DNA of 64,000 bases from Bdellovibrio bacteriovorus (GTDB taxonomy: Bacteria; Bdellovibrionota; Bdellovibrionia; Bdellovibrionales; Bdellovibrionaceae). The DNA lies in assembly GCF_001592745.1 (NCBI RefSeq), contig NZ_LUKD01000001.1, forward strand, positions 1,756,848 to 1,820,847. Reading direction: 5' to 3'. The position numbers and the translations under genes were made by a program. Position 1 is the stretch's first letter. Each line of letters begins with the position of its first letter. Shown in pieces: positions 50,772 through 54,295 of this stretch. The notes below the pieces were generated by a model. That model saw only the letters and a program-made list of their open reading frames with translations. It was not told the DNA's origin and searched no databases.

Positions 50772-51509
50772 ATGGCACGTCGGTTATCCATAGTCATTTT
50801 ATTGATCGTATTAGGGGGAGCGGCTCTTTATTTTTGGAATAAAGGGGCTTCTTCGTCAGTAATGACTGCAAACACTGATGCTTCTTCCATCTCATCATCA
50901 ACAAAGGACAATGAGTCCACTTCTACTGCCACCGTGGCAGTGGAATCTGCTGAGAAAACTCAAACCACTGAAATTGCTTCGAACCAAGAGCCAGCGCAGA
51001 TGGTGCCGCGCAAGTTAAGACTTCCGAAATCCGAGAGTGGAAAAGTTAAGTTGAATCTTCAGAATGCGGAATTTGTTGATTCACGCATATTTGAAGAAAC
51101 GGACTGGAAAATTTGGAAAAATGTTAGAGCAATTCCCAAAGTTGCCGGAGAACCTCCTCAAGAGATTGTAGGAGACACATCTGCTTATTATCTCGTGAAA
51201 GATGAGGGCGCAGATCCAAATGCATTTGTGGCTGCAAACCCTGTGGTCGTCTATGATCCGCGGCTAGGAATTCCGGGGATAGTCACGGGACGATTCTCTG
51301 TAGTTTTAAAAAGCGGAATTTCTACAGATCTCTTAACTCAAAACTTGGGGTTAAAAATCCTAAGCGGCTTTCCAGATATACGAACATACTTTGTGACCTC
51401 GCCAACGGAACCATTCGATTTAAAAGAACTACAAGACGTTTTGAATAGTGACCCCGGTATTGAGAGTGTCGAAATGGAAATTTTAAGAAAACGATATGAA
51501 AAGAATTAG
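50772..51509 (+). CDS. stand-alone subtilase propeptide-like protein
   Basis: The 245-residue protein starts with a hydrophobic signal/anchor (ARRLSIVILLIVLGGAALYF), a Ser/Thr-rich linker, and a C-terminal domain of about 100 residues: GIPGIVTGRFSVVLKSGI, LLTQNLGLKIL, FDLKELQDVLNSDPGIESVE. This matches the I9/proprotein-convertase pro-domain normally fused at the front of a subtilase. Here it ends 14 bp into the protease gene in another frame. It probably folds and inhibits the protease in trans. The split from the protease is notable. Confidence 0.65.
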   Translation: MARRLSIVILLIVLGGAALYFWNKGASSSVMTANTDASSISSSTKDNESTSTATVAVESAEKTQTTEIASNQEPAQMVPRKLRLPKSESGKVKLNLQNAEFVDSRIFEETDWKIWKNVRAIPKVAGEPPQEIVGDTSAYYLVKDEGADPNAFVAANPVVVYDPRLGIPGIVTGRFSVVLKSGISTDLLTQNLGLKILSGFPDIRTYFVTSPTEPFDLKELQDVLNSDPGIESVEMEILRKRYEKN

Positions 51510-53202
51510 CCATAAAACACGCATTCTTATATCGCTTATATTGGCAGGTTCCGTCACCGCGCTCTTTTTTACGAATTGTGCAGAGAGTACCTTTTCTGCT
51601 GCCGAGCCAGATAAAACAGGCGCCGATCCTCTTTTGGAGCTTGCATGGCATATCAATAACACTGCTCAAAAAGTTTTTTCATCAAAGTCTGGCGAGCCTG
51701 GGAATGATCTTAATCTTCTTCAAACTTGGCAAAGCGGATATTCGGGAAAAGGAATTAAAATTCTTGTCTCTGATGATGGAGTTGAAGATACGCACGAAGA
51801 TTTGAAAAAAAATTTCCTTAGCGGCGTGTCTCTTGACTTCACAGGTGCTTATCCGTGGGTCTCAGCGACCGCGTCTCCAAAGCATGCTGAAGATAATCAT
51901 GGTACGTCGGTTGCTGGTTTGATCGCAGCCACTGCTTCCAATGGAGTAGGAACCAAAGGAGTGGCATATCAGGCCTCAATTGCGTCTGCTAATTACATCG
52001 CGTATGGGCAAGATCAAGATGATGATAAAACTATTGCGCAGGCTGCCGGGGATTTCGATATTTATAATATGAGTTGGGGTTTTGACCAAAATATACTTCA
52101 CGTTCCTTTATCGTCTTTTCTAGCTCAAATGAAATTTAAGGTAATGAACGGACGCTCAGGTAGAGGTTCGGTTTATGTTAAAGCTGCAGGGAACTCGTTC
52201 TTTATTTTGTGTCGTGGCTCCGAAGAGGAATATTGTGTAGGCAACTCAGGCTTCGACTCTGACAACAGTACGCCGTACACTTTGATCGTAGCAGCCTTAA
52301 ATGCTCAAGGGTACGCCGCAAGCTATTCATCTCCGGGTTCAAACATTTGGATCTCCTCTTTTGGTGGGGAATTCGGGGACGATTCTCCAGCAATGATAAC
52401 GACTGATCGTATGGGGTGTTCGAAGGGATTTTCGGTTTCAAACATCAATAGTAAGGTTGCTTTTGAGCGTGGCGCGAACGGGAATTCGGCCTGTAACTAT
52501 ACAGCTACTTTTAATGGAACGTCCTCCGCGGCACCAATTCTTGCTGGTGTTGTCGCTTTGTTAATGGAAGCTAACCCAAATCTTTCATGGCGTGATATAA
52601 AATATATTCTCGCAAAGACAGCCGTTCCGGTGAACTACGTTACTTCGGGTGTAATATCACATCCTTTGGAAGTTACGCCTACGGGGTATGCTTGGGAGCA
52701 GCCATGGATTGTGAATGGTGCGGGTTTTAAATTTCACAATTGGTACGGCTTTGGAAAAGTGGATGTCGACGCTGCAGTGAAAATGGCGAAGCAATACGTT
52801 TCTCAGCTGGGAACCTATACCGAAACTGATTGGGCTCATACTTCGGGAAGTATTTCTGCGAGTATACCCGACAATAATGCCGCAGGTACAAGCAGTCTTA
52901 TAGTTGTAAATGACGTCATCAAAATCGAATCCGTTCAAATTAAAGTGTCGGTCACACATCCCGACGTCTCGGAACTGGCTTTGGAATTGATATCTCCTTC
53001 TGGTAAAAAGAGCATTCTTGTGAATATGCGAAATTCCTTGTCAGGCCTAGCCAACTTTACCGAATCCAGTGCCGTTTTTCTGACAAATGCATTCTATCAA
53101 GAGAGTAGTCAAGGCGCGTGGACCTTGAAAGTAGTTGACGGTAAAAGCGGTAACACAGGAACGTTAACTCAATGGAAAATCAATTTCACGGGTGGTAGAT
53201 AG
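51496..53202 (+). CDS. kexin-like subtilase with P domain
   Basis: The 568-residue protein has a hydrophobic N-terminus ending FFTNC (possible atypical lipobox, Cys-28) and no propeptide. The catalytic triad is Asp-93 (VSDDGVEDTHEDL), His-135 (EDNHGTSVAGLIAA) and Ser-343 (FNGTSSAAP), with oxyanion Asn-233 (KAAGNS). A P domain of about 120 residues closes the protein (VKVSVTHPDVSEL-like strands, GAWTLKVVDGKSGNTGTL). It is probably an exported serine protease cleaving at basic or other sites. The upstream frame overlaps by 14 bp and supplies the missing propeptide. Confidence 0.9.
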   Translation: MKRISHKTRILISLILAGSVTALFFTNCAESTFSAAEPDKTGADPLLELAWHINNTAQKVFSSKSGEPGNDLNLLQTWQSGYSGKGIKILVSDDGVEDTHEDLKKNFLSGVSLDFTGAYPWVSATASPKHAEDNHGTSVAGLIAATASNGVGTKGVAYQASIASANYIAYGQDQDDDKTIAQAAGDFDIYNMSWGFDQNILHVPLSSFLAQMKFKVMNGRSGRGSVYVKAAGNSFFILCRGSEEEYCVGNSGFDSDNSTPYTLIVAALNAQGYAASYSSPGSNIWISSFGGEFGDDSPAMITTDRMGCSKGFSVSNINSKVAFERGANGNSACNYTATFNGTSSAAPILAGVVALLMEANPNLSWRDIKYILAKTAVPVNYVTSGVISHPLEVTPTGYAWEQPWIVNGAGFKFHNWYGFGKVDVDAAVKMAKQYVSQLGTYTETDWAHTSGSISASIPDNNAAGTSSLIVVNDVIKIESVQIKVSVTHPDVSELALELISPSGKKSILVNMRNSLSGLANFTESSAVFLTNAFYQESSQGAWTLKVVDGKSGNTGTLTQWKINFTGGR

Positions 53203-53227
53203 AAGGCACCTTCCGGTGCCTTTTTTA
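53203..53227 (+). terminator. terminator of the subtilase unit
   Basis: AAGGCACC and GGTGCCTT pair over TTCC and are followed by TTTT. It starts one base after the protease stop and reaches the end of the convergent gene. Confidence 0.85.
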
Positions 53228-54295
53228 ATTCCCTACAAACATCGAACTTATACAATTCGTTTGCAGACTTGTCCCGGTGAAGGGCACGGTCCCAACGCGA
53301 GTCAGAGTCTTCGTCGTTGAATCATAAGTGAATTTTTCAATCACGTTCGCTAAAGATGTGGATCCATTCGCTACATATACAAAACCTGTTTCAGCATCAT
53401 AGGTCATCGCTGAAGGGCCGTAAATCACACTGGTGTTGTTGTAGGCGACAGTCGGCGATCCAATCGTGACGGTCGAGGCGGTTTCGGTTATGGGATAGGA
53501 AATTATCATATTCGAAGCCGCAGTCGTACTTCCCGTTGCGATCAAAACATCATTCGACGAAGGAATGTAAACCATGGCTGTCGGCAAAGCCGTTGTCGGA
53601 GTGATCGATGTGCTTGCTAAACAATCTGCCGCTGAAACATAGCCCGTGCTTTTTATCGCGTTTAACTTGTTATTAGGAGCAGCGGCGGCATGGGTATAAA
53701 GGATGTGTCCATACGTCGGAGTCACGGCCACACTTGAAATCAAGGTTGTCGTTGTCGCACAAGCTCCACCCGGTGCGTTCACATAGGCCGCGGTCCCCAC
53801 GCGACTTTTCGCTGCGAACTTTTCAATCGAGCTTGATTTGCTGATGAGAAGAGCCCCATCAGAGGCAACAATCATACTTCTCATCACCGCATTCAGAGCC
53901 GTCGAGTTCGTAAAATAGGTCTGATATTGATTTCCATTTGAAGACTTCGTCACTCGATCCACACGACGCCCACTGGTGTTCTCGACCAAAGAAAGAACGG
54001 TGTTGTCATCGTGATTGATAACGGTGATAGGCGCATCGCCCGGCGAAGCCGCGTTGTAGTCAACGATGATGTCATGGATATTTCCGGTCGCTAGATTCAC
54101 ACGGGAGATCGTGCGCGAAGGGGATGTCGGCGTAGGTCCCCCGGCATAACAACTTCCGCTAGCAATATAAAGAAAGCGTGTTGGATTTGTGGCTTGATCG
54201 TTTTCGCTCGAACCATCATCTTCAACCTGTTGCTCGCAAGCCGTTGCTAACATCAGAGTCACTACTAAGAGAACCAAGTACTTCACTGTACTCAT
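53225..54295 (-). CDS. propeller-like lipoprotein
   Basis: The 356-residue product has a lipoprotein signal (LMLATACEQQV; lipobox LATAC). The rest shows repeating Tyr/Asn/Gly-rich strands (FLYIASGSCYAGG, HILYTHAAAAP, FVYVANGSTSLANV), with the look of a YncE-like beta-propeller. Such proteins often bind ligands or partners at the outer membrane. Function not recognised. ATG follows GGAGACA. Confidence 0.65.
   Translation of the reverse strand: MSTVKYLVLLVVTLMLATACEQQVEDDGSSENDQATNPTRFLYIASGSCYAGGPTPTSPSRTISRVNLATGNIHDIIVDYNAASPGDAPITVINHDDNTVLSLVENTSGRRVDRVTKSSNGNQYQTYFTNSTALNAVMRSMIVASDGALLISKSSSIEKFAAKSRVGTAAYVNAPGGACATTTTLISSVAVTPTYGHILYTHAAAAPNNKLNAIKSTGYVSAADCLASTSITPTTALPTAMVYIPSSNDVLIATGSTTAASNMIISYPITETASTVTIGSPTVAYNNTSVIYGPSAMTYDAETGFVYVANGSTSLANVIEKFTYDSTTKTLTRVGTVPFTGTSLQTNCISSMFVGN

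Follow-up and report, generated by a model that had tools for sequence, protein, structure and literature searches.

The window, the whole stretch of Bdellovibrio bacteriovorus DNA analysed here (64,000 nucleotides), carries two overlapping genes, ORF1 and window ORF2, which very probably form a protease/dedicated-chaperone pair of the kind known as ASP/ORF2 in Aeromonas sobria, the propeptide being supplied in trans as both steric chaperone and inhibitor. The pair is a real and conserved variant of this kind, with reversed gene order, an apparently tethered chaperone and a predicted lipoprotein as protease. From homology and gene layout we infer that ORF1 assists folding, that it inhibits the protease and that translation of the two genes is coupled. 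The features of the locus are as follows.

50772..51509, + strand: ORF1, propeptide-like chaperone of 245 aa, ORF_2_N-related, a separate gene
50778..50837, + strand: hydrophobic N-terminal helix of ORF1, residues 3-22, a probable uncleaved inner-membrane signal anchor (model; hydropathy 2.6; no A-x-A site by eye)
50838..51053, + strand: linker of ORF1, residues 23-94, low confidence and probably flexible (pLDDT mostly <60)
51054..51479, + strand: folded chaperone domain of ORF1, residues 95-236, N-terminal extension plus propeptide-fold core (model, fold matches)
51480..51506, + strand: C-terminal tail of ORF1, ILRKRYEKN, nine residues after the conserved Glu236, expected in the protease active site (ASP/ORF2 precedent, PMC5638518)
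51496..51509, + strand: 14-nt overlap between the 3' end of ORF1 and the start of window ORF2, in different frames; probable translational coupling
51496..53202, + strand: window ORF2, S8B (kexin-type) subtilase plus P-domain, 568 aa, without a propeptide of its own
51496..51579, + strand: predicted lipoprotein signal peptide of window ORF2, lipobox-like FFTN-Cys28 (Cys28 invariant in the alignment)
51745..52713, + strand: Peptidase_S8 domain of window ORF2, residues 84-406 (Pfam)
51772, 51898 and 52522, + strand: catalytic triad of window ORF2, Asp93, His135 and Ser343, with the oxyanion Asn233 at 52192
52924..53187, + strand: P_proprotein domain of window ORF2, residues 477-564 (Pfam)
53203..53226, + strand: possible terminator, an 8-bp stem AAGGCACC/GGTGCCTT followed by TTTT, seen by eye and absent from the terminator scan output

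Promoter and terminator scans at the locus returned nothing beyond chance level. The first-pass annotation had described separate, overlapping genes and a protease that begins close to its catalytic domain, and both points hold: the two ORFs occupy the positions given above, share 14 nt in different frames, and the catalytic domain of the protease is preceded by a signal of 27 residues, Cys28 and about 15 more residues. Both the Peptidase_S8 domain (PF00082, E 5.5e-40) and the P-domain (PF01483, E 7e-19) are present in window ORF2, the triad is intact, and Cys28 is invariant among 20 aligned relatives. Its closest solved relative is ASP (3hjr/3wqb, E 1.7e-78), in an alignment that ends at ASP residue 558, so that the stretch with the occluding Arg566 of ASP lies beyond the aligned part. 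A cis propeptide is absent from window ORF2, and the chaperone gene is adjacent. The same genome holds about 15 other subtilase matches. Several have a propeptide in cis, of a Fervidolysin_NPro-like type in L032 and L036, and two of these paralogues give weak hits to the chaperone profile; the split therefore belongs to the window pair and not to the subtilases of this organism generally. One of the paralogues, L036 (G000:C1:109637-110437, - strand), has the unusual combination of a C-terminal PilZ domain (E 3.3e-17) and a Fervidolysin-type prodomain.

ORF1 had been annotated as an I9-like pro-domain that acts in trans as chaperone and inhibitor. Support for the trans-acting role is good and comes from ASP/ORF2 homology, the fold, near-universal pairing and one naturally fused protein. 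The I9 label is apt for the fold. By sequence it fails: inhibitor I9 (PF05922) had no match in the whole genome at E 0.001 and none for ORF1 in the Pfam search, and the match is instead to PF18492 (ORF_2_N), which is named after the Aeromonas sobria protease chaperone ORF2. ORF1 itself scores 26.0 bits (E 1.2e-5), about 3 bits short of the Pfam gathering cut-off of 29.2 bits that served as the threshold for membership, and orthologues pass it (for example 38.9 bits in G023, 36.8 in G011 and 37.1 in G003). Two 531-aa frames with weak PF18492 matches (L077, L078) were dropped, as the family profile did not confirm them.

In the structural model, ORF1 comprises the hydrophobic helix (residues 3-22), a low-confidence linker and, from about residue 95, a well-predicted folded domain of about 145 residues. 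Subtilase propeptides and the chaperone of the ASP/ORF2 complex lead both the Foldseek and the VIA lists for this model. The top VIA match is 3wqb_B, the ORF2 of ASP (Z 8.2, 99/99 residues aligned, rmsd 3.1; model residues 102-245 superposed on 12-130 of the chain), which Foldseek places at rank 2 with a probability of 1.00; next come the furin-bound PC1/3 prodomain (VIA Z 8.2) and subtilisin propeptides (Z 6-8). Taken alone, a VIA Z of 8.2 is modest. A search of PDB sequences with the ORF1 family profile did not find the ORF2 chain and gave nothing meaningful; since ORF1 is also below the Pfam cut-off, the link to Aeromonas ORF2 rests on the Pfam profile, the fold and the context.

Like the window pair, ASP/ORF2 (PDB 3hjr, 3wqb; PF18492) combines an S8B subtilase that has a P-domain but no propeptide with a neighbouring gene whose product is a propeptide-fold chaperone, extended at its N-terminus and ending in a C-terminal tail (PMC5638518). 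Active ASP was obtained only with its ORF2, and the same authors noted homologous operons in four further genera (PMC5638518). In a subtilase survey of 2022, ASP is given as the exception to the rule of N-terminal propeptides (PMC9549277). The two systems differ in several respects. The chaperone gene is downstream in Aeromonas, whereas it is upstream with a 14-nt overlap in the window and upstream in 30/30 family loci, although gene order varies over the wider family and was not counted as defining the ASP-like class. Unlike ASP/ORF2, the window chaperone has an apparent membrane anchor and a long linker; ASP is secreted, whereas the window protease is a predicted lipoprotein; and the tail ends in KN (Asn after Lys) in ORF1 but in PK in Aeromonas ORF2. 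The cis propeptides of kexin, furin and subtilisin have the same fold as ORF1, but ORF1 is a separate protein with a stop codon in place of the autoprocessing site. VvsA/VvsB of Vibrio vulnificus was also considered; it is described as chymotrypsin-like and is an analogue at most.

The wider family was sampled by running the protease alignment against 84,980 species genomes, a scan that left 80 loci in several phyla. Together with the loci of the phylum and an iterated chaperone profile for partner genes, these gave a tree of 107 proteases, a sample picked by similarity to the Bdellovibrio protease and not representative of subtilases at large. The chaperone gene was upstream of 59 proteases, downstream of 40, on the opposite strand for 2 and fused for 1; the 5 for which none was seen (L112, L114, L143, L152, L180) all lie at contig ends, and 102/102 proteases away from contig ends have an adjacent or fused chaperone. 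To account for the well-supported branches, gene order must have changed at least five times, a count that is approximate given a long branch (L088), weak deep support and the lack of an outgroup root. Carriers belong to at least Bdellovibrionota, Myxococcota, Thermodesulfobacteriota, Pseudomonadota and Acidobacteriota. The ASP/ORF2 kind of arrangement is thus far more widespread than we found described, and both gene order and membrane anchoring vary within it: a broad multi-phylum lineage has a separate propeptide gene, repeated switches of order and one fused member. In hunts for proteases that lack a propeptide, neighbouring genes are worth inspecting.

Some loci have arrangements of their own. 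In two genomes of the phylum (L081, L092) the chaperone gene and the protease gene converge tail to tail; one Bdellovibrio genome has a second, diverged pair (L091; G006:C1, 677500-683500), and one deltaproteobacterial MAG has two tandem protease-chaperone pairs side by side (L150).

A single fused protein, which the first-pass annotation had named as a finding that would speak against the split, occurs in one member of the sample, a distant relative, and all close relatives are split. In this fusion (L178, from a gammaproteobacterial MAG) the signal peptide is followed, all in one frame, by a chaperone-like domain, a linker and the protease. The chaperone-like N-domain shares 41-49% identity with the separate chaperones of the nearest relatives (L176, L181, L182; E down to 5e-45), and at the point where chaperones encoded alone terminate in VPQ, LPQ or VPL, the fused protein reads on as VPQ|RIP. 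The fusion ties the separate chaperone protein to a propeptide role, and it looks secondary because it is nested among split relatives. Both domains are well folded in the fused model (blocks mostly at pLDDT 80-97) with a disordered linker; in comparisons with proenzymes, none superposed over the pro- and catalytic domains together.

The C-terminus of the chaperones is nearly invariant in length. Among 109 non-redundant chaperones, 103 stop exactly nine residues past an acidic residue that is 95% conserved, as do 58 of 64 representatives below 40% identity; an alignment-free check found D/E at position -10 in 90%. The nine-residue tail is present whichever the gene order (57/62 upstream chaperones, 38/39 downstream), and the N-terminal part ahead of the domain ranges from 22 to 189 residues, counted as open-frame residues. 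The gene overlap of Bdellovibrio could itself constrain the tail, but the -KN ending is kept where the genes do not overlap, in L029, where they abut, and in L102/L105, where a gap separates them. In Aeromonas, the C-terminal Lys of ORF2 lies at the catalytic site of ASP, which ORF2 inhibits with an IC50 of 84 nM (PMC5638518). If the chaperone gene ends where autoprocessing would otherwise take place, a fixed C-terminus is what one would predict, and insertion into the active site is its simplest reading. The exact nine-residue tail makes a sharp, testable prediction about how a propeptide acting in trans reaches the active site.

Most Bdellovibrionota chaperones have an N-terminal hydrophobic segment with no A-x-A site obvious by eye, then a linker; several outside the phylum have apparently cleavable signals, again by eye (for example ...ALAQ). 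ORF1 is apparently anchored at the inner membrane by its N-terminal helix. Of the 99 proteases with an upstream or downstream chaperone, 80 have a lipobox-like motif, as scored with a simple and approximate pattern, and that of window ORF2 suggests that the protease stays membrane-bound. ORF1 would be a subtilase propeptide made as its own protein: once exported, its N-terminal helix would hold it in the inner membrane, and the propeptide-like domain would sit in the periplasm on a linker of about 70 residues. The unfolded lipoprotein protease would be exported, dock on ORF1 and fold there, after which the C-terminal tail of ORF1 would occupy the active site, a product-like inhibitor that would last until it was displaced or digested. 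With a stop codon already terminating the tail, propeptide and enzyme would have no need to part by autoproteolysis. The two proteins are probably made together, their translation being coupled by the 14-nt overlap. Active-site insertion, membrane localisation and the mode of release are points that we infer.

The lipase-specific foldase Lif has an N-terminal membrane anchor, a linker and a periplasmic folding domain. As a membrane-anchored steric foldase it would work like ORF1 in outline, the layout of ORF1 being taken from the model; in a search of ORF1 for the Lif domain (NCBIfam), only the hydrophobic N-terminus was alike (E 0.061 over residues 3-56, far below the cut-off). We tentatively propose, as somewhat short of an even chance, that in Bdellovibrionota the membrane-tethered propeptide is itself a foldase, which stays in the inner membrane and folds and holds the lipoprotein protease, that protease activity depends on handing over or removing the tethered chaperone and not on autoproteolysis, and that the chaperone stop codon replaces the processing site across several phyla.

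ORF1 might also be an inhibitor only, protecting the cell against a periplasmic protease that folds without it. Pure inhibitors do exist among propeptide-fold proteins, and one of them, POIA1 in complex with subtilisin (1v5i_B), is among the fold matches of ORF1; the fixed tail, moreover, suits inhibition as much as folding. Nevertheless, we find this unlikely: the protease lacks the propeptide that paralogues in this genome carry, pairing with a chaperone is near-universal, and Aeromonas ORF2 is required for active ASP (PMC5638518).

A chaperone that both folds and inhibits the enzyme thus remains our preferred reading, and the first-pass annotation had added that it might keep the protease silent until release inside prey. 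Such a lock would agree with the occurrence of ORF1 in 24/24 genomes of the window's genus and with the rise at prey exit of other Bdellovibrio subtilase-family proteases such as Bd2269 (PMC12546842). It is nonetheless rather improbable, more so than an inhibitor-only role, and the suggestion is left unsupported: the pair is widespread outside predatory lineages, being found also in Desulfobacteraceae, Gallionellales, Anaeromyxobacter, Acidobacteriota and other lineages not known as predators, and the lipobox suggests a membrane-bound protease. In the predation literature, we found no published link between the window protease gene and a named Bdellovibrio protease.

Conservation among close relatives bears on the reality of the split. 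A homologue of ORF1 is present in 31 of 66 family genomes, including all 24 of the genus. In every one of the 30 family loci retrieved, the window included, the chaperone comes first and both genes are free of internal stops; the identical 14-nt overlap recurs in 27 (26 of 29 relatives plus the window), and both genes are retained in the three exceptions (L026, L029, L030). Each of the two proteins has its own export signal, and a dN/dS of about 0.19 against the nearest relative (dN 0.207, dS 1.119) indicates that ORF1 is under purifying selection. An assembly or sequencing frameshift that cut one ordinary proprotease in two would likewise leave overlapping genes in different frames, but it has practically no chance against a split common to all 30 family loci, a shared overlap, a protease with its own signal peptide and invariant lipobox Cys, and other lineages with reversed or convergent genes; the check for the same split in relatives, advised earlier, thus favours two genuine genes. 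The surroundings are also conserved in Bdellovibrio loci (for example L107, L108, L116), with trxB and a response regulator upstream and beta-propeller-like and PilZ-like genes downstream, though not each neighbour was found at every locus. On the opposite strand, at 53225-54295 of the window, lies a gene for a lipoprotein-like, repeat-rich and possibly beta-propeller protein, which adjoins the pair in several Bdellovibrio loci at only 34-38% identity.
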